DNA from: Flavobacteriaceae bacterium | GTDB lineage: Bacteria > Bacteroidota > Bacteroidia > Flavobacteriales > Flavobacteriaceae | Direction of reading: 5' to 3' | Length of the DNA stretch: 64,000 bases | NCBI GenBank assembly: GCA_016764435.1 | Contig: JAESRX010000012.1 | Location: 1-64,000, forward strand | Part shown: one piece after another, positions 12,535 through 31,682 of the stretch | How the letters are laid out: each line of letters starts with the position of its first letter | How positions within the stretch are numbered: the stretch's first letter is position 1 | The notes under the pieces: generated by a model | What the model was told of the DNA's origin: nothing | What the model saw: only the letters and a program-made list of their open reading frames with translations | Database searches by the model: none | Program-made: the position numbers and the translations under genes

Positions 12535-15500
12535 TTATTTTTCTATCAACGAAAACCTATTGGACAGTCCATCCTTACATAGAATCGTCACAGTTGTTAT
12601 TTCTTCAGAATTTTCAATATGTTGCACTACTCCTTCCGTCATTACTTTCCAGTTTCCTTTTAAGGTCAAGGTAAGTAGTAAAGGTTCACTGCGCGTATCA
12701 TACTTCCAGTTTTTCTTGATTTCAAAATTCAAATCAGGCTGTACCGCATTAATCGTTATGGTGCTTGCATCATCTCTACGAATCATCACCAATGAAGGAA
12801 CAGAAACCTCTTTTAAAATTCCAAATTGCAACTCTCTATGCGCTTCAAACACGACATAACCAGTCGTAGCAGTAGTTTTATCAACTACAATATGTGCAAT
12901 ACTATCTGCTTTATGAATACTAAAGGAAGTATCTTTCTTTATTTTTTTATCAAAAGAGTCGATTCCTTTTTTACTTAAAAACGGATAAATCACATATTGA
13001 TAAGTCGCACTTTCCGGTGCATTGCCATGATCTAGCCAAGCGGTAGCGTAATTCCCTATAGTTTCTTTCGCTCCTTTCCCTCCAGGGTGCATCGCTCCGG
13101 TACGAATGGAGTATTTATTATGATAAGAATGCTGTTCTTCTTTCTTCAACATAACAGGGGTCTCCGATAAAATATGATAGCCATTACCATAAGGATCTAT
13201 TATCCATTTTCTAGATTTAGACGCTTGTAATTCCATCACATGCATCGGGAACTTTTTCAAGCTTCCTAAAGATGTATTTAACGCGTTATTTCTATTGGCT
13301 AAATGTGTTTGAAACAAATTAGTTTGCACAGGATTTTCTGTATCTATACTTGAAATATTAGTTCCAATACAAATCAGTTTATCGCCAAAAGAAAACACTG
13401 ATTTTCTTGCTTTTAGTTTTCCTGGAAACCCAATTGCTCCTACATAATCTCCATCCGCATTAGATCCTTTGTCTTCATTTAAAACCATCCCAAAAACACC
13501 ATTCCCATCTAATTCCACTGCACCGGCAAATGTTTCCTTTGAACGAAACATAAGTAAAGGTGTATCTGGTTCTAACTCCTCTAGAGGTAAATAAATAATG
13601 GTTCCTCCTGGATACCTGTTCCAATCCCATCCTTCCTGCTCGAATCCGCTTCCTTTTTCTCCTTTTTCATTGAGTAATTGAACCGTTCCATTAGCAGGGT
13701 ATCTTCCATACCTATTTGTAGAAGCATAGATTTCTGAGGCCCATACATATTTACTATAGCCTTTAATAATGGCTGCCCAATTATCCCTTCTGTGAATTGC
13801 TGTCGCCGCATAAGGCATTGTTTTGTATCCTGATAATAATTGCTTTTCTATTCCAGCATTGGCAAAAAGAGCACTATTTAGAATGTCTTTCTTTCCCCAA
13901 AGCCTTAAGTAAGTTGACGCCACCTCTTCGTCTATTTTTGAAGTGCCTGTTGGATTTCCTGCATACGCCATTAAAAGATATGGCTTCTTTAATGTTTTTA
14001 TATCCCCTTCTTCCAATGGATGTCTCCCTGCATTTCCAAAGCCAAAATCAAACATCTGACTGTACATACCTGTGGTTAAAAATGCATTTTTAAAATTAGC
14101 ATGCCCTTCCTTTCGAATACGAAATCTAGTCCCTGACAATGCTTTAATTACTTTTGGAACATTTCTAAAGGCTCCCATACCATAAGCTGGATAATGCCCA
14201 TTATGATGCCATGAAGTACCATCCACTTTAAAGCCTCTTTCTCCATCCTGCTGTGCTAAAATGATAGACATCATTTTAGAATAGGCCTTTAATAAAACGA
14301 CTTGTTTCTCTTTATTATCAGACAAGAAAATAAGCATCAAATGATAGTAGGATTGTGTATTCAGATAATCTATATTTACTAAGAAATTTTCCTCATCATC
14401 TAGCACAGAACCTAAATTATAAAGCCACTGTAAACTACCTCCTATCTCATTTAGCAAACCTGCTTTTTTTAAGGATGTTCTCATCACGTAAAAAGCTTCT
14501 GTAATTTCTCTTATACTATACCCTATATGATGTCTTGTTCCTCCAGAACTTCCAGCCTGCCATCCCTGATCTAAAAAATACCTTGATGCAGTTAAAAACA
14601 TCGTTTCGATTTCTTTCTTTTCCGAAGCAGTAGCTCTGTCGTATAATTTGGCAGATCTACTAACTACTTTTCCGAAATCTCGAATATCATTAAACTTTTT
14701 AGGGCCTTGTTGTTTTTTATTATAGTATTCTTGTTTTAAACTAAAAGTCAAGGGAGGTCCTGAGATTAGCCCATCCTTTTCTTTAATAGTTAACTTCTGA
14801 AAATCTGTTCTTAAAGCATTGATATACACTTTGTATTTTTTGGCTACAGAAAGCTCTTGATCAATCCCATTTTCAATTTTCAACAAATCTCTTCTAGCGG
14901 CCACTGAAATTGGTTTTACAGGCACCTCTTCAAGCCATTTCTGAAATTTAATTAAGGGCATCCATTGGTCTGAACCTGCCTTCTTATCAAAAGGAACTGT
15001 TAGGTCTGGATACGGATGTCTATCATCTTGATATTGGGAGAAAATAATATCGTCAAAGAACAATTTCCCGCGGGCAGCAGTTGTCGTAATTTTAAAATAG
15101 TCATAGTCTACAGGCGCTTCTTTCTTTGGAACATTTCCTTTCATTTTATAGAAAGGCACCCATATATGTCTCCATCCTTTAAAGGATAGTTTTATGTCAA
15201 ACCACACTTCTTGTTTCCCTTCTTTTTCAAAGGAGATGGTAATGTTCCCTTCTTGAGGATCTTCATTATAAAGAGACATGATAAGTGTCGGGCTTGAAGG
15301 AAAGAAATCACCGTATTCTAAAGGACTTTCTTTTCTACTCAACAGTCTAAAATTGGAAGTACCGAAAGAGCTTTCTCCTTCGGTCCATTCCCATTTTAAT
15401 GCTTTTTTACCAAATCTTTTATGTACTGTACTAAGTGACAACTCACTGCTCAATGCATGGTATGAAGTTAAAACAGCTTCCGATTCAAAAGACTCGACAG

Positions 15501-15579
15501 CAGGTTTTAAATTTTGAGCTTTTATAAAAAAACACATGCATAATAAAACAATCAGCGGTACTTTTTTAAAGATTTTCAT
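12535..15579 (-). CDS. Polysaccharide lyase family 8, chondroitin ABC lyase type
   Basis: Beta-eliminative lyase for uronate-containing glycosaminoglycans. Of 1014 residues, 1-22 form a signal peptide ending KAQ. An N-terminal beta-sandwich carbohydrate-binding-like domain (about 25-190) is followed by the alpha/alpha toroid (about 205-590) and the beta-sheet C-terminal part. Spacing against Proteus chondroitinase ABC I (His501, Tyr508, Arg560, Glu653) gives His459 and Tyr466 in HHNGHYPAY, Arg519 in GNAGRHP and Glu616 in WASEIYAS; WDWNRYPGG follows at about 651. There is no T9SS C-terminal domain or lipobox, so it is probably periplasmic. It lies 15 bp downstream of the GH88 gene in one operon. 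Whether it prefers chondroitin, dermatan or hyaluronan cannot be decided. Confidence 0.9.
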   Translation of the reverse strand: MKIFKKVPLIVLLCMCFFIKAQNLKPAVESFESEAVLTSYHALSSELSLSTVHKRFGKKALKWEWTEGESSFGTSNFRLLSRKESPLEYGDFFPSSPTLIMSLYNEDPQEGNITISFEKEGKQEVWFDIKLSFKGWRHIWVPFYKMKGNVPKKEAPVDYDYFKITTTAARGKLFFDDIIFSQYQDDRHPYPDLTVPFDKKAGSDQWMPLIKFQKWLEEVPVKPISVAARRDLLKIENGIDQELSVAKKYKVYINALRTDFQKLTIKEKDGLISGPPLTFSLKQEYYNKKQQGPKKFNDIRDFGKVVSRSAKLYDRATASEKKEIETMFLTASRYFLDQGWQAGSSGGTRHHIGYSIREITEAFYVMRTSLKKAGLLNEIGGSLQWLYNLGSVLDDEENFLVNIDYLNTQSYYHLMLIFLSDNKEKQVVLLKAYSKMMSIILAQQDGERGFKVDGTSWHHNGHYPAYGMGAFRNVPKVIKALSGTRFRIRKEGHANFKNAFLTTGMYSQMFDFGFGNAGRHPLEEGDIKTLKKPYLLMAYAGNPTGTSKIDEEVASTYLRLWGKKDILNSALFANAGIEKQLLSGYKTMPYAATAIHRRDNWAAIIKGYSKYVWASEIYASTNRYGRYPANGTVQLLNEKGEKGSGFEQEGWDWNRYPGGTIIYLPLEELEPDTPLLMFRSKETFAGAVELDGNGVFGMVLNEDKGSNADGDYVGAIGFPGKLKARKSVFSFGDKLICIGTNISSIDTENPVQTNLFQTHLANRNNALNTSLGSLKKFPMHVMELQASKSRKWIIDPYGNGYHILSETPVMLKKEEQHSYHNKYSIRTGAMHPGGKGAKETIGNYATAWLDHGNAPESATYQYVIYPFLSKKGIDSFDKKIKKDTSFSIHKADSIAHIVVDKTTATTGYVVFEAHRELQFGILKEVSVPSLVMIRRDDASTITINAVQPDLNFEIKKNWKYDTRSEPLLLTLTLKGNWKVMTEGVVQHIENSEEITTVTILCKDGLSNRFSLIEK

Positions 15580-15594
15580 ATGATTTTTTAAGCG

Positions 15595-16881
15595 TTAATT
15601 TGATGTTTTGTTAAGTTTTTTCAACCTAGAAAGTGCTTCAATATAATAATAGTCTGCATAAATCAAGGCTACATCTATTTCTGACCCTAGTGATTTAGCG
15701 CCTGTAGAATGAATTAAGAACGAAGCCGCTTTTCCCTTTCCTGAATACACATCAGAACTTAAAGAAGTTAACATTTTTATGGCGGCGTTGTAATATCTTT
15801 CTTGATCTTTTTTATCGGTCACAAACGTACTCATTTCCAAAAGAGCTGAGGCTACAACAGCTGCTGCAGAAGCATCACGTTCTTGAGTTTCTAAGTTCGG
15901 AGCATCAAAATCCCACTGAGGAATCATATCCTCTGGCAATAATTCCAAGTATCTATCTGCTAATTTTTGTGCGAAATCTAAGAATTTTTTATCTTTTGTT
16001 TCTCTGTACATCAAACTATAACCATAAACTCCCCAAGCTTGACCTCTAGACCATCTACTATCATCACTATACCCCTGCTTCGTATGTCTATTTAATACTT
16101 CACCAGTAGTCTCATCGTATTCTAATACGTGCCAAGATGTATAATCATCTCTAAAATGATTTTTCATCGTCGTTTCTGCATGTTTGACTGCGATGTCATA
16201 GTATGTAGAGTCTCCACCATTTTTAGCTGCCCAGAATAACAATTCAAGATTCAACATATTATCTATAATAGTAATGTGTTCTGACCAACGAGGATGCATT
16301 ATATTTGACCATGATTTTAAGGTCCCAACATTTGGATTAAAGCGTGTTGCTAAAGAGGCTGCTGAAGTCAACAGAATGTCTTTATACTCTTGTTTGTCTC
16401 CAAAAAGGACACCGTTACCATAGGCAGGAAACATCATAAAACCAATATCGTGGTGTTCTGTAATGTTTTTAAAGTCTTCAAAAACCTCCGTTCTTTTGAT
16501 CGCTTCATCTTTCCATTTTTGTACGCCTGTAAGTTCGTACATATACCAAAGTATTCCAGGATAGAATCCAGAAGTCCAAATTAATTTATCATTGGGAACT
16601 TCTACCCATTCTGTTTCATTTGTTTCTATCAATCGAGGGTGTTTTGTTAAATCAGTTAATTTTAACACTGCCTTGTCTAATTGCGCTTCACAAAAATTAA
16701 TTTCATTTTCTAAATCAAATGACTGCTCCATAGCGCTTGGCGCTTGTTGCTCTTTGGTTTTTGTTGTCGGTTCACAACTTATAATAAAAGGAATAAGGAA
16801 GACTAAAATCATTCTTGCCATTGTGCTCCTGCTATTCTTTTTTGAAAAATTCTTAAAACTTTTTAAATTGATAGTTTTCAT
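15595..16881 (-). CDS. GH88 unsaturated glucuronyl hydrolase, lipoprotein
   Basis: Removes the 4,5-unsaturated uronic acid from the non-reducing end of lyase products. The catalytic pair of the family (Asp88 and Asp149 in the Bacillus GL1 enzyme) corresponds to Asp145 in HHDIGFM and Asp207 in IIDNMLNLELLFWA. Further family marks are WTSGFYPGILWYMYE and DDSRWSRGQAWG. The N-terminus has a lipobox (FIISC, Cys36), so it is membrane-anchored. An internal ATG at residue 21 (MARMILVFL) would give a more typical 16-residue lipoprotein signal and may be the true start. It is the first gene of an operon with the PL8 lyase, preceded by the direct repeat at 16963-16999. Confidence 0.9.
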   Translation of the reverse strand: MKTINLKSFKNFSKKNSRSTMARMILVFLIPFIISCEPTTKTKEQQAPSAMEQSFDLENEINFCEAQLDKAVLKLTDLTKHPRLIETNETEWVEVPNDKLIWTSGFYPGILWYMYELTGVQKWKDEAIKRTEVFEDFKNITEHHDIGFMMFPAYGNGVLFGDKQEYKDILLTSAASLATRFNPNVGTLKSWSNIMHPRWSEHITIIDNMLNLELLFWAAKNGGDSTYYDIAVKHAETTMKNHFRDDYTSWHVLEYDETTGEVLNRHTKQGYSDDSRWSRGQAWGVYGYSLMYRETKDKKFLDFAQKLADRYLELLPEDMIPQWDFDAPNLETQERDASAAAVVASALLEMSTFVTDKKDQERYYNAAIKMLTSLSSDVYSGKGKAASFLIHSTGAKSLGSEIDVALIYADYYYIEALSRLKKLNKTSN

Positions 16882-16962
16882 TTCGTTATTTAATTTTACT
16901 TGCTATTATACCTAATTCGGCTATTTTCTATTCCGTAAAAATAATTAAAGCACTAGAGAGTT

Positions 16963-16999
16963 AAGAGGGGTAAAAGTCCAAAACAAGAGGGTGAAATTA
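16963..16999 (-). promoter_or_regulatory. Candidate HTCS operator upstream of GH88-PL8
   Basis: In the gene direction this reads ATTTCACCCTCTT and then TTTTACCCCTCTT, with 21 bp between equivalent positions; the proximal copy ends 82 bp before the GH88 start. The same repeat precedes susC and the divergent PL8 gene. Two copies about two helical turns apart fit binding by an AraC-type regulator. Assignment to the HTCS at 27126 is inference. Confidence 0.6.
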
Positions 17000-17310
17000 G
17001 TACACGTACATAAAACATTTTCCACCCTTTTTAAAAAAGATAAAAAAAACAACTAAACCAATTCAAACCGACTGTATTTAAGGTGATTAAAAAAAATAAC
17101 AGCGTACTAAGACATTCTCTTTCTACAAAAAAAGGACCACAGATAGCGTTTATCCCTCCGTTATAAAACACTCTTTTTGGAGCTCTTAAAAACTATTCGC
17201 ATAAGATTTCTCCCTTGGTTTATCCTCCCATTTCTATCACGAACTTATGTGTGCTTCACAAAGAAAAAAAAAAAAAACAACTTGAATAAAGAAGGTTCCT
17301 AACAAAAAAA
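17000..17310. other. Non-coding part of the GH88/DUF5017 intergenic region
   Basis: About 310 bp upstream of the candidate operator, AT-rich, with a poly-A tract near 17265-17278. No gene or RNA was recognised. With the flanking operator and hairpins it makes up the 635-bp gap between the two PUL operons. Confidence 0.4.
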
Positions 17311-17336
17311 TCCAAGTAATTTATAAATTACTTGGA
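17311..17336 (-). terminator. Perfect palindrome with T run, possible second terminator
   Basis: TCCAAGTAATTT is followed directly by AAATTACTTGGA with TA at the centre. On the minus strand the arm is followed by seven T residues. It lies about 180 bp past the DUF5017 stop, behind the stronger terminator at 17447-17501. Confidence 0.55.
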
Positions 17337-17446
17337 TTAAAAATGAATTTTGAAACAAAAAAACAGCGACTCTAGAGAAGACATCATGTATTGAATCCTC
17401 ATCTAAGCGCACTGATTTCACATTCTAAGAAGTATCATTCCAAAAG

Positions 17447-17501
17447 AAAAAAAACCCCCAGTATACGCACACCATACTTTCAGTGTACGCATATTGGGGG
17501 A
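17447..17501 (-). terminator. Strong terminator of the susC-susD-DUF5017 operon
   Basis: On the minus strand an 18-bp stem (CCCCCAATATGCGTACAC against GTGTGCGTATACTGGGGG, with G-U pairs and one mismatch) is followed by at least eight T residues. It begins about 16 bp after the DUF5017 stop codon. Confidence 0.9.
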
Positions 17502-17516
17502 ACATTTTATTCTTTA

Positions 17517-18446
17517 CTATTCTGTTACTTCAATAATATATTCTTCAATTTTCTCTTCAGAACCATCGATGGTGGTATTATTACCAATTACGGTAATCGT
17601 ATAAACACCTGGTTGTGTATATGTATGAGAAAAAGAACTAAGAGACTCTGAATACGTTTTTAACGCAACTCCTTTATCTGGTGCCACTTTAGTCAAGTTA
17701 ATTGACTTGGTCAATAACCAGTCTTCATTCGCATAGTCAGAAGGACTCCCTCTAAATCTCCAGTAATTACTAAAAACATACCATTTACCCACATTATACG
17801 TATCAACAACCCCTAGTACATCTACGGTATCCCATCCTGGAGTACTCATAGTTGCAACCGTTAAAGGAGCAGGAGCTCCAGTAGCTTCCATTTCAACTTT
17901 GAATCCATCCAAACGCCATTCCGGCTGTCTGTGGCCAGTTCCGCTATGATCTTCCGCGTAAAATTTAAAGGCGAAATAAATAGGATCTCCAGTAGCAAGG
18001 TCTGTAATATCTGCAATTCCAGCATCCGTCCAATCGAACGAGTATGCTGTCGCAATATCAAACCTATCAGAGACATCTACCCAAGTAGATTGTTCTAGAG
18101 CTTGAGGTGTTCCTAAACCATCATAATCCGTAGAAGCCCATACAGTAAGCGTTCCTGCTTTATTATTATTCGTACCCCATTTCTGTGCACTTTTAAACGT
18201 CATCGTTACTTTTCCTTCCGCATTGGTTCTATCTTTATATTGGTATTCATGCCCAAAATCACCAGAATAAAGATACAAGAAATTAGGAGCATTTTCTACT
18301 GAAAACTCAACGATATCTCCAACCTTTACCACTTGGTTATACGTGATTGTAAAACCCGGTTCTTTCACTTCTTCTAAATCTTCACAGCTCTGAAAAAAGA
18401 CTGCTAAGAGGAGTAACCCTGGTACTATAAATTTTATATTTTTCAT
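17517..18446 (-). CDS. DUF5017-type surface lipoprotein, SusE/F position
   Basis: 309 residues with a lipoprotein signal (MKNIKFIVPGLLLLAVFFQSC, Cys21). The rest is beta-rich: a domain with FSVENAPNFLYLYSGDFGHEYQYKDR, a middle portion with AFKFYAEDHSG and WRLDGFKVEME, and a C-terminal PKD-like strand (FSHTYTQPGVYTITVIGNN). I place it in the DUF5017 family, found after susD in PULs, where such proteins act as outer-membrane glycan-binding lipoproteins. It is the last gene of the susC-susD operon, 48 bp after susD. The binding ligand is inferred from the neighbouring lyases. Confidence 0.75.
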   Translation of the reverse strand: MKNIKFIVPGLLLLAVFFQSCEDLEEVKEPGFTITYNQVVKVGDIVEFSVENAPNFLYLYSGDFGHEYQYKDRTNAEGKVTMTFKSAQKWGTNNNKAGTLTVWASTDYDGLGTPQALEQSTWVDVSDRFDIATAYSFDWTDAGIADITDLATGDPIYFAFKFYAEDHSGTGHRQPEWRLDGFKVEMEATGAPAPLTVATMSTPGWDTVDVLGVVDTYNVGKWYVFSNYWRFRGSPSDYANEDWLLTKSINLTKVAPDKGVALKTYSESLSSFSHTYTQPGVYTITVIGNNTTIDGSEEKIEEYIIEVTE

Positions 18447-18494
18447 TTTTTAAATGTTTTAATTTTTAACAATTGGTAGGTTATTAAACATTAA

Positions 18495-20129
18495 TTACCA
18501 ACCTGCACTTTGCTTTAAGTTACTATTTACTCCTATTTCTTGTTCAGGAATTGGCAACCATTTATGTTTACTAGAATCGTAATCATTATACCCATCATAG
18601 TAATTAAAAGAACCATGAAGATTATTAGTTCTAATATTTAAATCTGTAGGTTCGTCACCACTTTGAGGAACTCCATCAGGACCTAAATTAGGTTCTCCGT
18701 AGATAGTCCAGTCTTCATTAGTAAAATTAGCATTTCCTGCATAGAATTCCATCACACTTTTTGTTTCAGCAACTCTACTGGTCAATAGCCCCCATCTAAT
18801 AAGGTCATATTTTCGTTGACCTTCAAAACATAATTCCAACATACGTTCCTCTTGAATCACTTCATCAGTAATCACAGTAACTGGAGTTGCTTTTGCTCTG
18901 TTTCTCACAGTATTTAATGCATCCAATGCTTGTTGAGATCCTGGAGCTAATTTATTTTCTGCTTCTGCAAACATCAATAAAACATCTGAATATCTTAACA
19001 CTGGCCAGTGATGCGATCCAAAACTGGTATTTGAATAATTAGCTTCTAAGTTTCTACGGTATTTAGATGCAGCGTACGTAAATTGATTGTTAATTGTTTT
19101 ATAGTTACAATCGTTATTACGCGGTATATAATAAGGAGAAGCATTCCATAACCCTCTTTCATCAGAAGGATCCGATCTGTATTTTAATACAAGTGATATG
19201 GTCGCATAAGTAACTGAATACCCTTTCCCACAAGCTTCGTCATGAACTAACTGTCCAAAAACAGAACCTAATTTTGAAGATTGGTTAGAGTCTAAGGTTG
19301 CAAAAGAATAGCCAATTTGAAATAATACCTCTTTTTTATCATAGTTCTCCATGGCTAATTGATCAAAAACATCTTGATAACTAGGGTTTAATTCATGGTA
19401 TTGATCGTCCATCACTTTTTTACTCCACGCTCTTGATTTCTCATAAGATCCAGGCTCGTTGAATGGTTCACCAGCAATGTATAAATATACTTTTGCTAAC
19501 AATCCTCTCGCAACTCCTTTACCAGCTCTTCCTGGAGTAGTCTCTGCATCCGAAGGTAAAAATTCTTCAGCAAATTCTAAATCAGAAATAATTTGCTTGT
19601 ATACCTCAAGTCCAGGAGTTCTAGGAAGTAATTGTTTTGCTGTATCCTCTAAAGGCATTGGAATTCCTTCCAATCCACCAAAGGCTTTTTGCAAATCAAA
19701 ATACACAAAAGCTCTTAAAAAGTGAACCTCTGCTAAAAACTCTTTCTTATCACTTTCTTCTAAACTTGCATTTTTAAGATTTGTAAGATACGCATTGGTT
19801 CCGCTAATAGCTTCATAGTACAGTGCCCAAACTTTCGTTAACTGTGGATCTGAAGGCGTAAAATTATTTTTAAGAAAACTAGACGTTCCTTTTCTGTTAT
19901 AATGCCCTTCATCTGTAGAATTTGTAGGATACTGTCCGTTTATTGCAGCAGATTTATATACCTGTCCAATTCTACTATAAATACCGGCTAAGCCTGCTAA
20001 AGCACCTGAGCTCGTATTGTATAAATTTTCCGAAGTGATATTGTCATTTTGAGCAATTTCTAAATCATCATCACACCCTTGAAACATAAAGGTAGAGACT
20101 AGTAATGCTAATATTAATTTAATTTTCAT
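18495..20129 (-). CDS. SusD/RagB-family glycan-binding lipoprotein
   Basis: Outer-membrane lipoprotein that forms the lid of the SusC importer. Of 544 residues, the lipobox MFQGC (Cys19) is followed by the SusD fold: TPR-like helices (EFLAEVHFLRAFVYFDLQKAFGG near residue 130; ARGLLAKVYLYIAG near 207) and the C-terminal RagB/SusD signature (RYSDVLLMFAEAENKL, ALDALNTVRNRA, EERMLELCFEGQRKYDLIRWG). It starts 10 bp downstream of the SusC gene, as usual for the pair. Confidence 0.95.
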   Translation of the reverse strand: MKIKLILALLVSTFMFQGCDDDLEIAQNDNITSENLYNTSSGALAGLAGIYSRIGQVYKSAAINGQYPTNSTDEGHYNRKGTSSFLKNNFTPSDPQLTKVWALYYEAISGTNAYLTNLKNASLEESDKKEFLAEVHFLRAFVYFDLQKAFGGLEGIPMPLEDTAKQLLPRTPGLEVYKQIISDLEFAEEFLPSDAETTPGRAGKGVARGLLAKVYLYIAGEPFNEPGSYEKSRAWSKKVMDDQYHELNPSYQDVFDQLAMENYDKKEVLFQIGYSFATLDSNQSSKLGSVFGQLVHDEACGKGYSVTYATISLVLKYRSDPSDERGLWNASPYYIPRNNDCNYKTINNQFTYAASKYRRNLEANYSNTSFGSHHWPVLRYSDVLLMFAEAENKLAPGSQQALDALNTVRNRAKATPVTVITDEVIQEERMLELCFEGQRKYDLIRWGLLTSRVAETKSVMEFYAGNANFTNEDWTIYGEPNLGPDGVPQSGDEPTDLNIRTNNLHGSFNYYDGYNDYDSSKHKWLPIPEQEIGVNSNLKQSAGW

Positions 20130-20139
20130 GATTTTATTT

Positions 20140-23100
20140 TTAAAATGAAAGATTTAAACCTAAACTTATTGTTTTATGTTTTGGGTACGCTGAGTAATCA
20201 ATTCCAGGAGTGATTAGAGAATTTCTAACTGACACATCTGGATCAAAACCACTATAGTTAGTCCAAGTAATTAGGTTCTGAGCTGAAAGGTACATTTTCA
20301 AGCTACTTAAGTTTACTTTTTCTAAGATTTCCTTAGAGAAGTTATAAGAAAAATTAACAGTTTTTAAACGGATATAAGAACCGTCTTCGATAACTCTAGA
20401 AGAAACATCTTCAAAACCTTGACCACCAGCTCTATTCAATATGGTGTTTTGATTTTCATGTGTCCATCTATTTTTTACTGTTGCTAATTGATTCTGACCA
20501 GCACTGTTTTCAAAAATTAGTCTATTCGCATTTAAAATATCGCTTCCGTAAGACCATTGGAAAAATGCACTTAACTCAAAGTTTTTATAACTAAATGTAT
20601 TTCCTAAACCTCCAAAATGCTTTGGTAATCCATTTCCAATAATTGTTTTATCAGCTCCGGTAATTTTACCATCTCCATTTAAATCTTTGTATTTTTCATC
20701 TCCAGGTTGGTGACTTTTATAACTAGGCTGTCCTGCAATCAATGTATGTGTAGTTGCGGTACGGTCATAATTTTCAAAATCCTTGATTTGATAAACTCCA
20801 TCAGAAATATATCCAAACATATTTCCTAAAGATTTTCCTTCTTCTACGATGAACTGATTGGTACTGTATCTCCAGTAATAATTAGGTTTTCCAAAAATCG
20901 GTTTCCCATCAGGTAAAGAGACAATACTGTTTTGGTTAAACGAGATATTAAAATCAGTTGTCCATTTAAAGTTTTTAGTCGCTATATTGGTCGTGTTTAC
21001 AGAAATCTCTAATCCTCTATTTCTAACATGTCCAGAGTTTGTCCAAATAGACGAATATCCTTGAGACAAGGCCGCATCCGCATTGATAAGCAAATCTTTG
21101 GTGTCTTTTTGGTAAGCTTCTACGATAAATGATATTCTATCATTAAAAAACCCAAAGTCTACCCCTGCATTGTATTGTTCAGTAGTTTCCCAATATAGAT
21201 TTGGATTTGCACCAAAACTTGTTGGACGTTGTCCAGAAACTGTTTTACCATCGAAGTAATACGAAGCATTCACATCTGTTAAAAATTCAAACCTTGCTGA
21301 ACCTGGTATTCTATCATTTCCTGTTTTACCATATCCAACTTTAAACTTTAGTTGTGAAAATATATTCAAGTCCTTAATAAAGTCTTCTTTATCTGCTTTC
21401 CATGAGAATGCATAAGAAGGGAAATATCCGATTCTATTCGCTTTCGGGAAATTAGACGATCCATCTCTTCTGATAGAAGCCGTAAATAAATACTTATTTT
21501 TAAATGAGTAATTAAACCTTCCTAGTAAAGAGTATATTCTTGATTCACTACTACCATGTAAATCATTCGCACTATTTAAAGTTCCTCCATCCAAAGAATT
21601 GATTCCTAAATCTTCTAAATATTGAGGAATATCAATAGATCTAAAACGAGTCCTTGTATATTTTCTAATGTTTACTGTGGCTCCTACAAGTGCATTTACA
21701 GAATGATCTCCAAATTTCTTTTTATAGTTTAAGGTATTTACATTTGAAAATATTTTCCAACGTTGCGTATCCAAGCTTCCATAGATACCATCTATTTTAC
21801 TTACTAATCTTCCGTATACAGTTTTACTATTATTAAAAACCTCTGTCGTTCTAAATTGAGTATTGTAACTTCCTTTTGTTTCAAAAGTTAAATCTGGAGT
21901 TACTTTATATTTTAAAGAAAGATTTGCAATAAATTGATCGTTTTCTCTTTTTCTGTACTCATTTTTCAAAGAAACAATCGGATGCCAAACTACAATGTTT
22001 GTCAAATCATATTCATCATTGATATCATTCAATGGATTGAAATCACCATAGTCAACAAATTTATTTACAACAGGAGCATAACTAATTAAGTTTCTCATAA
22101 ACGAATAAGAAGATGTTCCTTTCGTATCCAATCCTTTTTGTACATAATTCGTATAAACTACGTTTGTATAAAGATTTAATTTATCATTTACTTTATGATT
22201 TAAACTCAACCTTCCGTTTATTCTATTGTATTCAGAGTTTAATAATGACCCTTGATCTTCAATCGCATTTAGGGAAGCATTAAATCTTGTTTTATCCGTT
22301 CCGTTAGAAATCTTAAGTTTGTGTGTTTTTGAATACGCTGTTCTAAAAGCATCGTCTTGCCAGTTTCTAGAAGGCGAATCAATATAGTCTTCAAGACCTC
22401 CAACAACTACACGTTGATCTGTCGCTTCATCATACACTGCAAAATAACGTAAACTAGTACTTGCTTCATTCAGCTCTAGTCCTAATTTAATATATTCATA
22501 AGCACTCAATACCTCTAATTTTTTAGAGACTTGTTTTACATCTAACCTTGATTCATAAGAAATTTTTGTCTTTCCTAAAGTCGCTTTCTTTCCTGTAATA
22601 ATAATAACACCATTTGCTCCACGAACACCGTAGATAGCAGTTGCAGATGCATCCTTTAATACACTGATAGACTCAATATCCGAAGGATCTATTAATCCTG
22701 GGTTAAAATTGTCAATAATAAATCCATCCACAACATATAAAGGTGAATTATCTCCGTTTACCGTATTCCCCCCTCTAATTATAATAGAAAGAGCACCTCC
22801 TGGCTCACCACTTCCTGAACTTACCTGAACTCCTGTAACTCTACCTGCTAAAGCCTGGTCAAAGTTAGAAACCGGAGCTTCTGTTAACTTGTCCATCTTT
22901 ACCGTGGCTACAGAACCTGTAAGATCTTTTTTACGTACAGAGCCATATCCAATAACAACTACTTCTTCTAAATTACTCACATCTGGAAACAACTTCACAT
23001 TCACTTCCGTTTGATCAGTGATCAGTACATCTTTAGGTTTGTAACCAATATAACTGATCGTTAAAGAAGCCCCTTTATATACTTGAATGGTATAATTCCC

Positions 23101-23310
23101 ATCAAAATCTGTGGTCGTTCCATTTTTGGTTCCTTTCTCAAAAACATTTGCTCCAGGAAGCGGATCTCCTATTTCGTCCGTGACCAAACCTTTTATTGTT
23201 TTAATTTGTGAGTAACCAGTGTTACTACACAAACCAATAAATAGTAACGCCATAATAAGGAGGCTACCATTTTTTAATTTTGTTAAAAATACTTCAAATT
23301 GATTCTTCAT
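20140..23310 (-). CDS. SusC/RagA-family TonB-dependent transporter
   Basis: Outer-membrane importer of oligosaccharides. The 1056 residues comprise a signal peptide (about 1-35), a carboxypeptidase-D regulatory-like domain (IKGLVTDEIGDPLPGANVFE to about residue 105), the TonB box/plug with the EVVVIGYG motif and VTGVQVSSGSGEPGG, DIESISVLKDASATAIYG and GANGVIIITGKK, and then a long beta-barrel ending FSF-like (HKTISLGLNLSF). It is the first gene of the operon with susD and the DUF5017 gene. The candidate operator at 23377-23414 lies 67 bp before its start codon. Confidence 0.96.
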   Translation of the reverse strand: MKNQFEVFLTKLKNGSLLIMALLFIGLCSNTGYSQIKTIKGLVTDEIGDPLPGANVFEKGTKNGTTTDFDGNYTIQVYKGASLTISYIGYKPKDVLITDQTEVNVKLFPDVSNLEEVVVIGYGSVRKKDLTGSVATVKMDKLTEAPVSNFDQALAGRVTGVQVSSGSGEPGGALSIIIRGGNTVNGDNSPLYVVDGFIIDNFNPGLIDPSDIESISVLKDASATAIYGVRGANGVIIITGKKATLGKTKISYESRLDVKQVSKKLEVLSAYEYIKLGLELNEASTSLRYFAVYDEATDQRVVVGGLEDYIDSPSRNWQDDAFRTAYSKTHKLKISNGTDKTRFNASLNAIEDQGSLLNSEYNRINGRLSLNHKVNDKLNLYTNVVYTNYVQKGLDTKGTSSYSFMRNLISYAPVVNKFVDYGDFNPLNDINDEYDLTNIVVWHPIVSLKNEYRKRENDQFIANLSLKYKVTPDLTFETKGSYNTQFRTTEVFNNSKTVYGRLVSKIDGIYGSLDTQRWKIFSNVNTLNYKKKFGDHSVNALVGATVNIRKYTRTRFRSIDIPQYLEDLGINSLDGGTLNSANDLHGSSESRIYSLLGRFNYSFKNKYLFTASIRRDGSSNFPKANRIGYFPSYAFSWKADKEDFIKDLNIFSQLKFKVGYGKTGNDRIPGSARFEFLTDVNASYYFDGKTVSGQRPTSFGANPNLYWETTEQYNAGVDFGFFNDRISFIVEAYQKDTKDLLINADAALSQGYSSIWTNSGHVRNRGLEISVNTTNIATKNFKWTTDFNISFNQNSIVSLPDGKPIFGKPNYYWRYSTNQFIVEEGKSLGNMFGYISDGVYQIKDFENYDRTATTHTLIAGQPSYKSHQPGDEKYKDLNGDGKITGADKTIIGNGLPKHFGGLGNTFSYKNFELSAFFQWSYGSDILNANRLIFENSAGQNQLATVKNRWTHENQNTILNRAGGQGFEDVSSRVIEDGSYIRLKTVNFSYNFSKEILEKVNLSSLKMYLSAQNLITWTNYSGFDPDVSVRNSLITPGIDYSAYPKHKTISLGLNLSF

Positions 23311-23376
23311 CTGTATTTGATTTAATTATACTTAATTATTGATTATTGATGCTGTAAATTTAACAGTATTTAAGAA

Positions 23377-23414
23377 AACAAGAGGGGGTGAAATGTACAT
23401 TAACGAAGGGTGTA
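23377..23414 (-). promoter_or_regulatory. Candidate HTCS operator upstream of susC
   Basis: In the gene direction this reads AATACACCCTTCG and then ATTTCACCCCCTCTT, 22 bp apart. The proximal copy ends 67 bp before the susC start. It matches the repeats before GH88 and the divergent PL8 gene. Confidence 0.6.
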
Positions 23415-23592
23415 TTGGTTCTTTTAAACGTACTAAATACGCGTAATAACTAAGTCCTTCTAAAAGTGATTCTTACATGACTTTAAAATATACACTTTCA
23501 TATAAGCACCTTTAACAAATAGGTGACAGCAGCGATTCAAAAACAAACCCCGCAATAAAAACGACGCACATTCTGGTCTAAATAAAGGCTTA

Positions 23593-23626
23593 TTTACCCC
23601 CTATATTTACCTTTGACCCCCCTTTT
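23593..23626 (+). promoter_or_regulatory. Candidate HTCS operator upstream of the T9SS PL8 lyase
   Basis: ATTTACCCCCTAT and TTTGACCCCCCTTTT lie 20-21 bp apart; the proximal copy ends about 78 bp before the ATG at 23705. A 7-bp inverted repeat CCTTTTT/AAAAAGG overlaps the downstream edge (23621-23639). Together with the susC copy it occupies the 394-bp divergent intergenic region, which holds no gene. Confidence 0.6.
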
Positions 23627-23704
23627 TAATATAAAAAGGAAAGCTAACTTGCTACAACGCATTTTTCAATTCTCACAATCAATATTGAATAAATTAAAAC
23701 GATA

Positions 23705-26700
23705 ATGAAAACACTTTTTAAACTGCTTTTTTTGAGTATTCTTCCATTAATAGGTCACACTCAAAACAACATAAATTCCCCTATCGGGTCTTCAATCCCT
23801 CTTACAAACACATCATTTACAGCGAACAATAGCATACCTACAGATGGTATTACCAGCCTTCCCCTGTTTACAAATAAACAATCATTTACAAAATCTCTTT
23901 TAGCCAACAGGTCAGAATTAAGTGAAGTTTTAAAGGAAAGCACTCCCCTACACTCTCCAAATAACACACAACTAACTCTTGAAAACGCTCCTTTAGAATC
24001 CCCTTATAAAAACGGTACTTTAAAACAAAAACAAGGAGATTTCAACGCTAAAAGCCCATTATTAACGAACACTTCAGAATCCTTTAGTGTGGCGTCAAAC
24101 TGTTCTTTTAATTTAAGCCCCGATTTAAATTTAATCGCCTCTAACAGCAGTATAGAAAATGAAATAAACACTGCAGTCAATAAGTTTTCCCAATCCTATT
24201 TAGGAAATACCCCTCCCACCTCACAAAAATTATCATCGGCAATAGCCGCGTATAACGCTTTAAATATAAATGTGGTCAACGGAACTATTTCAGGAAACTC
24301 AACAAGTTCCTTTGTCCAAACTACTTTCTTGAAAATTTTCGCACAGCATTTAGTTTTTAATCCAAACGACGCAGCCATTCAAGAGAAGGCAAATAACGCT
24401 GTCTGGTGGATCTCTAAACAATTCTGTGCAGGCACGATGAAAAGAGATGTCACCATGTACAGCTATCAGAAATTTGCGCGCCCCGTGTCTTTACTAAACA
24501 AACATCTAAAACCTGAAGTCAAAAAACTATTTGCATATACACTTTATATACACACCCGAGGGTTTAAGCATTTCTGGAGCCCTAACTACGATACGAATTA
24601 CCAACTTAAAAATCAAACCATTAATACCGATGTGATTTTCAACCTTTCTGACGCCTTATTAGCCTATAGTTTATGGCATGACACCGACGCGGAACGCTAT
24701 CGATATATGAGAGCGTATAAACGCTATATGAATCGCTTTTTTTCGTATGCTGTAGGAACAAATGACGGTCTTAAAAAGGATGGTTCCGGATTTCATCACT
24801 GGGTGGCTTATAATAATTACATGTATGCTTTTAATACTGCTGCAAGTGTAATATCATACCTAAAAGAAACTTCATTTGAAATAGACCCTAGCAATTATAA
24901 AATATTTAGAGACGCTGTCTACTTTCAATATATACAATCGAATGACATGGGGATTCAAGCGTTGTCTACTTCTGGTAGAAATCCACATAACAGACGAAAC
25001 CCAATAAATCAAAAGGCACTAAAAAACATAGCGATTACTGGAGGTGACATTTTAGGTCTTTCTACAGCAGACCCTCTGTTAGCCGGACTCTATAATCGTA
25101 TTTATGGAATTGACCCTGCTTTTAATTACACGGGGATTACAAGCCTAAAAACCCAAGAAGGAGCCTTTCAAAACAACCATAGTTTAAGCAGTGTTTTCAG
25201 AAAATCAAATTGGATCGCCGTTAATAAAGGTTTTAGTAACAATATGTGGGGTGCAGAAATTTATGATTCTAAAAACAGGTACGGTCGCTACCAAAGTTAT
25301 GGAGCCTTAGAAATTATTTATGAAGGAACCATGGAATATGGTAACGGCTACGATGTGAATACCTGGAATTGGAATTTTAATCCCGGAACTACGACCATTG
25401 CACTTCCTTGGTATAAACTACATGCAGAATATGGGAGAATCGATGAATTACAACGGAATCGTTTTGTAGGAGCACTGTCCTTTAAAAACAAGAACAGTAA
25501 TTTACTAAAGGCTACACATGGTACTTGGGGTGTTTTTGCGATGGACTTTCAGGAAATAGAAGGACAAGGTTGGGGAAACTCTTATGGAGGAAACAATCAC
25601 AATGCAACCTTTGCTTTTAAGAAATCTACGTTCACTTTTGATGACCTAATTATATGTTTGGGCTCTGGCATCAAAAATAACAACGCTACAAACAACACAA
25701 TCACCACATTATACCAACGGAAAAATAATAATTCCAATGATATCATCGTAAATGGAAGCATCCAAAATGGGGCCTCTAAATATTCTATTTCGAATGACAA
25801 CTGGCTGATTAGTAATTACAATACAGGATTTTACATTGTCTCTGAAGAAGGAAACCTGAATGTATGGACTGGAAACCAACAGGTTCCCTTAGCGTATCAA
25901 ACCAATCAAAATATCTCTAACAATCCATCCGCTCGCTACTCTATCGCATACATTAACCACGGTAAAGCTCCTAAAAATGCAGGGTACGAATATGTAGTGC
26001 TTCCTGACACAAATACAGGTACTATGCTAGCGTTAAGCAGCGCTTTTTTATCAGGAAATAAACCATACACCGTACATCAAAAAAATGCGAGCGCCCATAT
26101 TATTGAACATCTCGCTAAACACACTTGGGGATATGCTATATTCAGTGACAATACTAACATAATGAACCCTGGACTCCTTACTGATGTAGACAAAACGTCT
26201 TTAATAATGTATGAAATTAATAGTGCAAAAGATGTAATTACCTTATCGGTCTCTAATCCAGACATTGGTTATAACTCTAGACAGTATACCCCTTCAAAAG
26301 AAAAAAAGATACGAATTACCATAAAAGGAGGTTGGGAACTTCAAAATTCAAGTGCCAATATCCAAATTATTGGACGTTCAGCAACACGAACTATTATAGA
26401 ATACACGACCGTAGATGGTCTTCCTATTGAAGGTCTATTTCAGAAAAACGATACAGAAAGTAATCAGAGTGAAGACGCTACCATTGATCTAAATTTACTA
26501 AACACGATTGACGAAAATAAACTAGTCATCTACCCAAACCCCGTCAGAGGAAATTCCATTTATGTAAAACACCCAGAATCCGCTGGTAATGTTTCCTGTA
26601 CCATTATAAACATTTTAGGCCAAGTAATCCATCGTGAAATTATTAAAAATCATACGGTGAACATCAGTAATTTACCCTCTGGAACCTATACCGCCTCTTT

Positions 26701-26746
26701 TACAATTAACAACGAGAGAATCACACGAAGATTCATTAAAAAATAA
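23705..26746 (+). CDS. PL8 lyase with T9SS C-terminal sorting domain
   Basis: A second PL8-family lyase (chondroitin/hyaluronan type), 1013 residues. A signal peptide (1-19, ends GHTQ) is followed by a Ser/Thr/Asn-rich stretch (about 20-150) with no recognisable domain, then the toroid (about 155-470) and beta domains. Catalytic positions by spacing: His365 and Tyr372 in HHWVAYNNY, Arg425 in STSGRNPHN, Glu518 in MWGAEIYDSKNRYGRY; WNWNFNPGTTT follows. Residues about 935-1013 form a T9SS type A sorting domain (VIYPNPVRGN ... LPSGTYTASF ... RFIKK), so the enzyme is exported through the type IX system and exposed or released. It is divergent from susC. It is clearly a different branch from the PL8 at 12535, with little identity outside the motifs. 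Confidence 0.9.
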   Translation: MKTLFKLLFLSILPLIGHTQNNINSPIGSSIPLTNTSFTANNSIPTDGITSLPLFTNKQSFTKSLLANRSELSEVLKESTPLHSPNNTQLTLENAPLESPYKNGTLKQKQGDFNAKSPLLTNTSESFSVASNCSFNLSPDLNLIASNSSIENEINTAVNKFSQSYLGNTPPTSQKLSSAIAAYNALNINVVNGTISGNSTSSFVQTTFLKIFAQHLVFNPNDAAIQEKANNAVWWISKQFCAGTMKRDVTMYSYQKFARPVSLLNKHLKPEVKKLFAYTLYIHTRGFKHFWSPNYDTNYQLKNQTINTDVIFNLSDALLAYSLWHDTDAERYRYMRAYKRYMNRFFSYAVGTNDGLKKDGSGFHHWVAYNNYMYAFNTAASVISYLKETSFEIDPSNYKIFRDAVYFQYIQSNDMGIQALSTSGRNPHNRRNPINQKALKNIAITGGDILGLSTADPLLAGLYNRIYGIDPAFNYTGITSLKTQEGAFQNNHSLSSVFRKSNWIAVNKGFSNNMWGAEIYDSKNRYGRYQSYGALEIIYEGTMEYGNGYDVNTWNWNFNPGTTTIALPWYKLHAEYGRIDELQRNRFVGALSFKNKNSNLLKATHGTWGVFAMDFQEIEGQGWGNSYGGNNHNATFAFKKSTFTFDDLIICLGSGIKNNNATNNTITTLYQRKNNNSNDIIVNGSIQNGASKYSISNDNWLISNYNTGFYIVSEEGNLNVWTGNQQVPLAYQTNQNISNNPSARYSIAYINHGKAPKNAGYEYVVLPDTNTGTMLALSSAFLSGNKPYTVHQKNASAHIIEHLAKHTWGYAIFSDNTNIMNPGLLTDVDKTSLIMYEINSAKDVITLSVSNPDIGYNSRQYTPSKEKKIRITIKGGWELQNSSANIQIIGRSATRTIIEYTTVDGLPIEGLFQKNDTESNQSEDATIDLNLLNTIDENKLVIYPNPVRGNSIYVKHPESAGNVSCTIINILGQVIHREIIKNHTVNISNLPSGTYTASFTINNERITRRFIKK

Positions 26747-27097
26747 GCTACAAAAAAAAGCTTACAAAGTGATTTTTACCCTCTATAATTTCAGCAATAA
26801 ATCACACATAAAAAACAGAGAAACACATTAGAACATGAAACGATTCAGCCCAAACTTACCCGAATCGTTTCCCTGTTCCTTTTGGCAGCATAATTAAACA
26901 TGGAGTTGCTATTACAAACCAATTATCAACAGTTACCATGTCACACTACAGCCTTTAAACAAGGGGGTTTCTGATGAGTTCCAAAGGAGTTGCTAGGATT
27001 CTTCGGCTAGACAACTCTCTCGAATACTAAAGAAACTTTTAGATCCATAATTTCGTAAAAAAGAAACTAAAATCACAGATACCCATTCAGAATATGT
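26747..27097. other. Intergenic region between PL8 and HTCS genes
   Basis: About 350 bp. It contains one good hairpin (26837-26871) and no gene. No copy of the PUL direct repeat was seen here, so the regulator is probably not under its own operator. Confidence 0.45.
26837..26871 (+). terminator. Hairpin downstream of the T9SS PL8 gene, possible terminator
   Basis: A perfect 10-bp stem GAAACGATTC / GAATCGTTTC with a 15-nt loop, followed by the mixed pyrimidine tract CCTGTTCCTTTT and not a clean T run. It is about 90 bp past the stop codon. Confidence 0.5.
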
Positions 27098-27105
27098 TAT
27101 TTTTG
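27098..27105 (+). promoter_or_regulatory. -7 element upstream of HTCS
   Basis: TATTTTTG fits TAnnTTTG and lies 20 bp before the ATG at 27126. No -33 TTG was identified. Confidence 0.45.
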
Positions 27106-27125
27106 AAGACTGATACTCCCCTTCT

Positions 27126-30100
27126 ATGAAATTCAATCGTTTTAACTTCTTATTATTTCTTGTTTTTTATTGCTCATTAACCATCGTTAACGGTCAAAGT
27201 AATAAAGCGATAAATGATTTAAAATTTAGACATTATTCATCAAAGGCGGGATTGTCACAGAGTACTGTCATTTGTATTTTACAAGACAGTAAAGGTTTTT
27301 TATGGTTCGGAACAAGGGATGGCTTAAACAGGTACGATGGCAGTAAATTTGAAATTTACAGACATGATTCTCAAGATACAAAAAGTCTAAATCACAGCTT
27401 TATTAAATGCCTTTTCGAAGACAAAAGAGGAAATCTATGGATAGGAACATCTAATGGACTCAATCTATATGACCCTATCAATAATAATTTTGAAAGGTTT
27501 CAACATAGTACAAATAAAGAAAGTATTGTTAACAATGAAATTTGGAGCATCAATTCTCACGATGAAAATAATTTATGGTTGGGCACAAATTCAGGCTTAG
27601 ACAAATTTAATATCAATAGTAAAAAAGCAACGCATTTCCTCAACAATAAAGAAAACAACAATGGGTTCTCTAGCCCTAAAATACGCACACTATTAAAAGC
27701 AAGTAATGGTGACCTCTGGATAGTTAGCACCAAAGAAATCGGAAAGTACAGTCCAAAAACCAACACCTTTAAACGCTATTTATACCCACAGAAAACAGCC
27801 ACAGATGTCAATATTAATAATGTCCCGTCTATTTATGAGGATCATCATAAAAACATCTGGTTTGGGTATGAAAAAGGACTCTATTTATTTAATAAAAAAA
27901 CAGAAAGCTTTGATTTTTTCCTTCCCAATAATGATGCAACAAAAGGAATAGATAAAGACGTTCGAACTATCTGTGAAGATTCCCTAGGAAACCTATGGAT
28001 AGGAACCTATAATGGTCTCTACATCATTAGTAAAAATAAAAACGAAGTATCTCACTTTGTACACGATGAAAACAACCCCTACAGTTTGAGTCAAAATTCC
28101 ATTTGGAAAATTTTTGAAGATACGAAAGGAGATATGTGGATCGGAACCTATGCTGGAGGTATTAACTATTACGACAGAAATTATGACTTGTTTAAAAATT
28201 TTATAGCTGGAATTGATAATTCAAAACTCAACTATAAAGTTGTAAGCTCCATTCATGAAGATGCTGCCCACAATTTATGGATTGGCACCGAAGGTGGAGG
28301 GATAAATTTCTACCATAAAAAAACAAATTCATTTAAATACTACACCCACGATAGTAATGACCCAAATACGCTGAGTAATAATAATGTCAAAGCGATGATT
28401 ATAAGTAGGGATGGACATATTTGGATTGGGACTCATAAAGGAGGACTGAACGTTTTAAATCCAAAAAAAACACCTTATTCGTTTAAAAAATATAAAAACA
28501 TAGCAGGTAACACCAATAGCATTAGTGACGACAGGGTGATTTCCTTATTTGAAGATTATCAAGACAATATTTGGATTGGAACCTCAGGAGGCGGACTGAA
28601 TTGGTATAACAGAAAGGAAAACAAAATCACTCGAATAACAGATCCTCTACATAAAATAGGGGCTATTATTTACACTATAAAAACATCTTCCGATAAAAAA
28701 ACACTTTTAATAGGGAGTAACCAAGGCCTCAGTAAAATAAACATTCTAACAAAGGAAATAACCTCTGTTAATTTCACTAAAAATAAAAACGCAGAGAAAG
28801 TGACCGTTTTATGTGTTTTTTTGGATGAAAATGCGACTCTTTGGATAGGCACCGAAGGACAAGGAATCTACCAATACAATTCACACACCAAAGAAAGCAT
28901 CCAATATGGGATTACTCAAGGACTCCCCAACGAAGTGATTTACGCAATAATAGAGAGCAACAACGCGCTCTGGATTAGCACTAATTACGGATTAAGTCAA
29001 TTAAACTTAAAGACTAACACCTTCAAAAACTTTGATGAATTTGATGGACTACAAGGCAATGAATTCAATCATGGTGCCTACTTAAAACACAGCAATGGAG
29101 ATTTAATTTTTGGAGGTGTTAATGGTTGTACCATTTTTAACCCTATTAAAATTATTGACAATCCATTTATACCTCCAGTATCCATTACCAACTTAACCGT
29201 AAACAACAAACCGTATTTAAACATCACTGATGCAACACCAGAAGTACAACTTACACATAAACAGAATGTTTTTACCATTAAATTCTCTGCGTTAAGCTAC
29301 TCTCAACCAGAAAAAAACCAATACGCCTATACACTAGAAGGATTTGACACAGATTGGAATTTTGTAGGCAATAAAAAATCAGCGACCTATACCAACTTAA
29401 ATTCAGGTGATTTTTTATTTAAAGTTAAAGCCTCTAATAGTGACGGAGTCTGGAATGAAAAAGGAGCTGTAATTCACATCACAGTGCTACCTGCACCATG
29501 GAAAACGATGTGGGCATACACTTTCTATTTGTTAATATTCCTCCTACTAATTTACTTTTTTAGAAAATTTAGACTCTCCAGAATAAATGAAAAAAATGAA
29601 CTTAAACTTGAGAAACTTGAAAAAGAAAAAATCAAGGAAATCAGTAAATTAAAATTAAAATTATTTACTAATATTTCTCATGATTTCAGGACACCACTTA
29701 CTTTAATTACAGGTCCTGTAGAGCAAATGTTAAAAATAAAAAACAGCAACCCTCTAATAAAAAGAAACCTAGAAACCATCCAAAGAAACACCGATGTTCT
29801 CTTGCAGTTAATCAATGAATTATTAGATTTTAGAAAATTCGACTCTGGGAAATTAGAATTACAAGCAACAAAAAATGACATCATTTCCTTTACTGAAAAC
29901 ATTAAAAAAACCTTTGATCAATTAGCTGTTCAAAAAAGCATCACATTTACCTTTAATCATAAAGACACCCAACTAGACGTATGGTTTGACGTCCTGAAAT
30001 TAAAAAAAATATTATTTAACTTACTCTCTAACGCCTTCAAATTCACTTCTAATAACAGTAAGATTATCATCAACATCTCTGTAGAACCCTCTCGGAAAAA

Positions 30101-31280: not shown

Positions 31281-31682
31281 TCTTCTTTCTAATATTCTAA
31301 ATAGCTACTAAAAACTATTTCAGAAGGTATTATCCAGCTATTATCAGCTTATAAAGTTACCGCATCAGGGCAAGTCTCATCTCTTAAAAAAGAACACTCG
31401 CTATGCTAAATCGTGAAATTAATTCAGCCCCCCAAGGAACAAAGCTTCCAAAATCAACTAAGGAACAAGTGTTTATATTTTCCAGTTGTTAACAATAAAG
31501 AACAGTACTCCCCATCATCCAAGTTCTAAATCACATCGCCCCTTTAAATATAGTTGTCAAATTTTAACTATCTTTGTAACACTAGGCATACTAACTAAAA
31601 TTAGTTCCTATTCTCCCCTAGTTACTTATTGCTGTAGCTACAAGAGACTAAAAACAATTGTGCCATAGAAACACCTATTCAA
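31281..31682. other. Intergenic region between HTCS and kinase genes
   Basis: About 400 bp. A TATCTTTG box at 31569-31576 could be the -7 element of the kinase operon, but it is more than 100 bp from the start at 31683 and the nearest TTG (31554) is too close to be a -33. A 60-codon frame at 31486-31668 has no convincing protein character. Confidence 0.35.

Follow-up and report, generated by a model that had tools for sequence, protein, structure and literature searches.

Hybrid two-component regulators (HTCSs) control many polysaccharide loci of the Bacteroidota, but, Bacteroides predictions aside, only a few of their operators are known. The PUL found in the stretch of DNA analysed here (64,000 nucleotides of a Flavobacteriaceae genome, hereafter the window) comprises a susC-susD-DUF5017 operon, a GH88-PL8 operon, a divergent PL8 gene and a canonical HTCS. 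The genes are as follows.

12535 to 15579, minus strand: PL8 lyase, chondroitinase ABC-like (Pfam Lyase_8; 2q1f 'Chondroitinase', E-value: 7e-111)
15595 to 16881, minus strand: GH88-type unsaturated glucuronyl hydrolase (closest solved structures are GH88 unsaturated glucuronyl hydrolases; 3wiw, E-value: 8e-90)
17517 to 18446, minus strand: DUF5017 lipoprotein-like gene, third in the susCD operon (Pfam PF16409)
18495 to 20129, minus strand: susD (Pfam SusD_RagB; 52-72% identity to orthologous loci)
20140 to 23310, minus strand: susC, SusC/RagA TonB-dependent transporter (Pfam and TIGR04056)
23705 to 26746, plus strand: divergent PL8-family lyase, secreted, with a type IX secretion sorting tail (Pfam Lyase_8 and Por_Secre_tail)
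27126 to 31280, plus strand: HTCS, the proposed activator (nine Pfam families)

The HTCS combines in a single chain a periplasmic two-component propeller sensor and Y_Y_Y, HisKA, HATPase, receiver and AraC HTH domains (Pfam). Its sensor matches PDB 4a2l over residues 9-795 (E-value: 1e-125), which we take to be BT4663, the heparin HTCS of Bacteroides thetaiotaomicron. Unlike the BT4663 locus, the window PUL contains PL8 and GH88 genes. No sulfatase was found among the window genes examined, whereas sulfatases are present in related loci and in a second PL8 locus of the same genome (PUL2, discussed below); together with the gene families, this suggests that the substrate is probably hyaluronan or chondroitin. 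The PUL (12535-31280) was not found in the three genus-mates searched (62-82% complete) and so looks like an accessory locus of the genus. The position of the divergent PL8 gene between the HTCS and susC is unlike the gene order of all relatives: in three loci (L029, L035 and L036) its orthologs are on the susCD strand and follow DUF5017 downstream. This gene seems to have moved and now has its own operator-like promoter.

The first-pass annotation had reported a C-rich direct repeat before the GH88-PL8 operon, susC and the divergent PL8 gene, with two copies 20-22 bp apart in the same orientation relative to the gene and the proximal copy ending 67-82 bp before the start codon. Direct reading confirmed all three paired sites. 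The sequences as read are TGTACTAATTTCACCCTCTTGTTTTGGACTTTTACCCCTCTT (minus strand, before GH88), AGAACCAATACACCCTTCGTTAATGTACATTTCACCCCCTCTT (minus strand, before susC) and AGGCTTATTTACCCCCTATATTTACCTTTGACCCCCCTTTTT (plus strand, before the divergent PL8 gene). ACCC-to-ACCC spacing is 21, 22 and 20 bp, respectively, and the proximal copy ends approximately 81, 67 and 82 bp before the ATG. The predicted operators, delimited using the conserved motif described below, are as follows.

16965 to 17004, minus strand: operator of the GH88-PL8 operon, TGTACTAATTTCACCC-tcttgttt-TGGACTTTTACCCCTC
23384 to 23422, minus strand: operator of susC, AGAACCAATACACCCT-tcgttaa-TGTACATTTCACCCCC (distal half-site 23422-23407, proximal half-site 23399-23384, period 23)
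23586 to 23622, plus strand: operator of the divergent PL8 gene, AGGCTTATTTACCCCC-tatat-TTACCTTTGACCCCCC (period 20-21)

The word that the copies share is looser than the one originally given for the repeat, TTTnACCC(C)CTCTT. The distal susC copy is AATACACCC (TACACCC rather than TTTnACCC), CTCTT is absent from both PL8 copies, and the half-site that is conserved is GAAC-N6-CCCC. The further statement that the region upstream of the HTCS gene lacks the pair was borne out: its best score with the 50-site motif (see below) has p = 0.06, and it contains a single unpaired TTTTACCCTCT at 26774, approximately 350 bp before the HTCS ATG. There is likewise no operator in front of the DUF5017 gene within its operon (p = 0.5, same motif).

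SusD searches identified eight orthologous loci in 399 genomes of the family and 19 in the species-genome collection, with six common to both. Among 395 genomes searched across the class, only weak SusD matches (31-35% identity) were found outside the family. The susC promoter is readable in 20 loci, 19 from Flavobacteriaceae and one from a Marinifilum MAG. A two-half-site element (tGAACAGnTAnCCCC...nACCCCC) is present upstream of susC in 20 of 20, which supplies the conservation before susC orthologs that the operator interpretation had called for. An unsupervised two-block fit from which the window was excluded recovered TGAACAgntAaCCcCt and AaA.C..tatcCCCCc, with a period of 22-24. The proximal end of the ortholog sites lies 54-79 bp upstream of the ATG, and 17 of them align without gaps across 45 columns. 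A retrained motif, a gapped two-block PWM, was built from 50 sites, all in other genomes. In this motif the half-site tGAACAGnTAnCCCC reads GAAC-N6-CCCC, with GAAC at positions 2-5 and CCCC at positions 12-15, and two copies form a direct repeat with a spacer of 4-8 nt. The period is 20-24 overall and 22-23 in 41 of the 50 sites. A GAAC box followed ten positions further by a CCCC box would suit an AraC domain with its two helix-turn-helix motifs. TTTnACCC covers just the C-rich portion of each half-site, in the drifted form of the window lineage: GTAC, GGAC, GGCT or TTAC replaces GAAC in five of the six window half-sites. Of the three sites, that of the divergent PL8 gene is weakest, and its GAAC boxes are degenerate.

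The motif also marks other promoters of these loci. When the susC-trained version was applied to all of their intergenic upstream regions, GH88 and several other PUL operons stood out (scores from 30.7 to approximately 10) and flanking genes did not. GH88 promoters of orthologous loci far outscore the other genes of the same stretches (17 versus 140, Mann-Whitney p = 4.5e-8).

With the 50-site motif, the window promoters score 25.1 (susC), 18.3 (GH88) and 17.9 (divergent PL8); among 2642 control chunks of 250 bp, 0, 1 and 1, respectively, score as high, giving p <= 8e-4 for each promoter. Over both strands of the 64 kb window, the susC site is also the highest-scoring match to the ortholog-trained susC-only motif (21.5). 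GH88 ranks fifth and the divergent PL8 gene ninth with this motif, so the case for these two sites comes from the retrained motif and from their position. When the window promoters are compared with 157 upstream regions from their own genome, the susC-only motif gives p = 0.006 for susC and 0.013 for both GH88 and PL8. A local sequence profile built from 17 ortholog sites (R1) did not recover the three operators in the window and gave weak matches elsewhere; the gapped two-block PWM took its place, with control DNA as the reference. Allowing one mismatch, the single word TTTNACCCNCT shows no enrichment in the window (23 occurrences against an expected 19.5), which places the signal in pairing and position.

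Four other matches were treated as chance. Two of them outscore GH88 with the susC-only PWM and are not at PUL promoters: one at 29740, within the HTCS coding sequence, and one at 31499, before a histidine kinase-like gene. A similar match at 47928 precedes a methylmalonyl-CoA mutase gene. The fourth (C54:25227; noncoding, score 19.4) lies approximately 470 bp upstream of an unrelated gene and has no -7 element.

Numerous copies unrelated to PULs had been named as a finding that would speak against an operator. The exact paired pattern of the first-pass annotation occurs once in the 3.03 Mb assembly, at the GH88 site. ACCC-N16..19-ACCCC, a less strict core pattern that matches all three sites, is found 20 times, compared with 32 for its reversed control; three of the 20 are these promoters, and most of the others fall within reading frames. 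Genome-wide scoring with the PWM covered a control sample of approximately 320 kb and was complemented by pattern and profile searches. When a profile of the ortholog susC sites was run on 12 whole genomes, every match with E < 1e-3 lay inside this PUL, in eight relatives whose genomes are complete or nearly so; in three genus-mates that do not have the PUL nothing was found below E = 0.2. By computation, the paired motif is shown to be conserved, consistently placed and restricted to PUL promoters. As the window assembly is 81% complete, additional operator targets may be missed.

The susC and GH88 sites may be genuine and the divergent PL8 site a chance C-rich stretch, with this lyase regulated otherwise or expressed constitutively. 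Such a division of the three sites is rather unlikely, but it is the alternative with the most in its favour. The divergent PL8 site has the lowest score, a period of 20-21, no GAAC box and a degenerate -7 element, and the arrangement of the lyase genes in L029, L035 and L036 means that its promoter has no ortholog. Against this, no more than 1 of 2642 control chunks reaches its score, the -7 type element TAACTTGC is found at the expected +22, and a similar operator half, AGGCTAATTACCCCC, precedes the GH88 gene of L035, whose HTCS is the closest relative.

The protein most likely to bind these sites is the HTCS. In 19 of the 20 orthologous loci its gene adjoins susC and points the same way, and the loci share no other regulator. 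The window genome, in which only three Y_Y_Y-type HTCS genes were found, offers a further comparison in PUL2, the second PL8 locus (contig C82; L086 and L087). PUL2 encodes a sister HTCS, a LacI gene product, a different SusCD pair, two sulfatases, a DUF4955 protein and likely unsaturated-uronate pathway enzymes, and it is present in genus-mates without the window locus. Its HTCS is 54% identical to the window HTCS over its length; SusC and SusD are only 40% and 31% identical. The GH88 promoter of PUL2 has the motif (score 24.0, equalled by 0 of 2642 control chunks). Its susCD promoter has a direct repeat, GAAC...TTCCC-N6-AGAACGATATATCCCT (second half GAAC...TCCCT), which is kept in four genus-mates but scores lower (10.3, p = 0.019). 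The motif thus follows the HTCS type rather than the SusCD type. One locus departs from the rule: in Gelidibacter salicanalis (L045, 3249-9988) a strong susC operator is found with an FG-GAP/ASPIC protein gene in the usual HTCS place, and no HTCS was found within the approximately 7 kb of upstream sequence examined. Conservation in 20 of 20 orthologs, the lack of scattered copies in the genome and the association with the HTCS all support the original interpretation of the repeat as an HTCS site. The element is thus very probably an operator bound by the HTCS of its own locus, a link that is strong although it is drawn from sequence.

Another transcription factor of the uronate pathway might recognize the motif instead. 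LacI-family genes lie directly upstream of the HTCS gene in G210, G379, G270 and PUL2, and in G210 the motif also precedes a kdgK-like sugar kinase gene. However, no LacI gene was found among the ORFs examined around the window locus, and five loci with strong sites (G121, G163, G115, G134 and G094) have no gene of approximately 340 aa directly upstream of the HTCS gene. LacI operators are generally inverted repeats of approximately 20 bp, whereas the element described here is a direct repeat of approximately 38 bp. A LacI-family operator was rejected on these grounds, and a regulator of this kind is very unlikely to account for the sites.

The motif is positioned precisely relative to the promoter. 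In 18 of 19 ortholog susC promoters, TAnnTTT[AG] begins 20-24 nt past the proximal C run, with a mode of 22; in a shuffle control the mean is 0.47 promoters and the maximum 4. The same placement is seen in 6 of 18 other PUL promoters. The corresponding elements in the window are as follows.

16936 to 16943, minus strand: -7 type element of the GH88-PL8 operon, TATTTTTA (starts 23 nt after the C run)
23355 to 23362, minus strand: -7 type element of susC, TAAATTTA (starts 21 nt after the C run)
23645 to 23652, plus strand: degenerate -7 type element of the divergent PL8 gene (starts 22 nt after the C run)

Because the proximal C run lies approximately 22 nt before the -7 element, a bound activator would take the position of the -33 box, which fits an activator that touches RNA polymerase. 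The same rigid distance, with a C run in the -33 box place, could indicate that the C-rich element is itself part of a promoter for an alternative sigma factor. This is slightly less probable even than a LacI-type regulator: conservation reaches approximately 38 bp upstream and includes two repeated half-sites, each with a GAAC box, which is longer than a sigma element, and the -7 element is of the primary-sigma type, TAnnTTTG being the -7 consensus of Bacteroidota promoters (PMC7366714). An origin of the repeats by chance, in DNA that is AT-rich and contains C runs, can be dismissed given the 20 of 20 orthologs, the outside-trained motif and the fixed promoter distance, although the loose core is no commoner in the genome than its reversed control.

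It is highly likely that the three paired sites are operators of the window's own HTCS (27126-31280) and act through the following mechanism. In the periplasm, the HTCS would detect a product released from a chondroitin/hyaluronan-type glycosaminoglycan by its degradation, and phosphotransfer within the protein would activate it. Two AraC-type DNA-binding domains of the HTCS would then bind the pair of directly repeated half-sites, which lie on the same face of the DNA at a distance of two helical turns. The GAAC box of each half-site would be read by one helix-turn-helix, and the CCCC box, a turn further along, by the other. Positioned in the place of the -33 box, the activator would recruit RNA polymerase jointly to the promoters of susCD, GH88-PL8 and the secreted PL8. 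Points against an HTCS operator are the drifted sites of the window, the L045 locus without a neighbouring HTCS, and the post hoc, single-lineage nature of the HTCS changes discussed below.

Sites of this type are known from predictions in Bacteroides. Direct-repeat operators averaging 21 bp apart were predicted for 16 Bacteroides HTCSs, and a regulon was reconstructed for HTCS_Hya (BT3334), the chondroitin/hyaluronan HTCS (Ravcheev et al. 2013, PMC3878776). On chondroitin sulfate, the BT3332 susC promoter depends on BT3334 for expression (PMC9845299), and HTCS response-regulator fragments bind predicted sites in susCD promoters in EMSA (PMC11253607). The predicted Bacteroides operators, especially that of HTCS_Hya, share with the present site two conserved sequences repeated directly at a distance of approximately 21 bp, upstream of susCD and enzyme operons. 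The element described here likewise has a non-conserved spacer, is conserved before orthologous targets together with an HTCS, and is present at further PUL operons. Both PULs have an adjacent HTCS and concern the same glycan class; the likeness to HTCS_Hya is one of layout and spacing. The present site differs in its occurrence in marine-type Flavobacteriaceae, its period of 22-23, and its resolution into GAAC and CCCC boxes at a fixed distance to the -7 element. The earlier statement that no operator had been published for this PUL type was consequently too strong, the HTCS_Hya regulon having been predicted. Of this particular site no description was found, and literature searches on HTCS operators of Flavobacteriia returned nothing specific.

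The site also resembles class II sites of the AraC/XylS family, such as the MarA and SoxS boxes, in having two boxes one helical turn apart per half-site close to the promoter. It overlaps or adjoins the predicted -35/-33 region, with a fixed distance to the predicted core promoter (18 of 19 ortholog susC promoters), and the HTH domains of the HTCS align with MarA. Unlike the MarA and SoxS boxes, it consists of two directly repeated half-sites, an arrangement known for full-length AraC-family dimers, and it is followed by the Bacteroidota -7 element rather than the -10/-35 elements found at MarA/SoxS class II sites. The result is a predicted operator at the level of sequence, whose half-site clearly consists of two boxes and whose distance to the promoter is fixed.

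The drift of the window operators may have a counterpart in the HTCS. Thirty columns of the DNA-binding domain are invariant in 23 other HTCSs, and the window protein alters only two of them (R1305K and N1348S).

31038 to 31040, plus strand: codon of HTCS residue 1305, K (R in 23 of 23 relatives); recognition helix of HTH1, aligned with MarA Arg46
31167 to 31169, plus strand: codon of HTCS residue 1348, S (N in 23 of 23 relatives); recognition helix of HTH2, aligned with MarA Glu89

Arg46 and Glu89 are DNA-contacting residues in the MarA-DNA structure. The chance that both changes fall on contact positions is approximately 0.014 when four of the 30 columns are counted as contacts, a post hoc figure from one lineage. 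A tree of 24 HTCSs places the window protein, on a long branch, with those of Lutibacter and PUL2. The two substitutions could match the drifted operator, again post hoc and in a single lineage. A tentative extension, improbable on balance, is that the HTCS and its operator changed together (R1305K and N1348S with loss of GAAC), so that the two glycosaminoglycan circuits would not cross-activate each other, while the sister HTCS would read the ancestral GAAC...CCCC operator of the sulfatase-bearing PL8 locus. The pair of sister HTCSs in one genome is a natural system in which to ask how specificity separates after duplication.

The operator motif allows regulon prediction for chondroitin/hyaluronan loci in approximately 20 species. 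Two observations concern its range. The Marinifilum MAG (L030; Bacteroidota, Marinifilaceae) has the same locus with a recognisable operator outside the Flavobacteriaceae, by either transfer or old ancestry. The G210 locus ends with the kdgK-like sugar kinase gene (L015, 34428-35474); the site before this gene is ATATCAATTTAACCCTCTAATTTGGGACATTTCACCCCT, which closely resembles the GH88 operator of the window.
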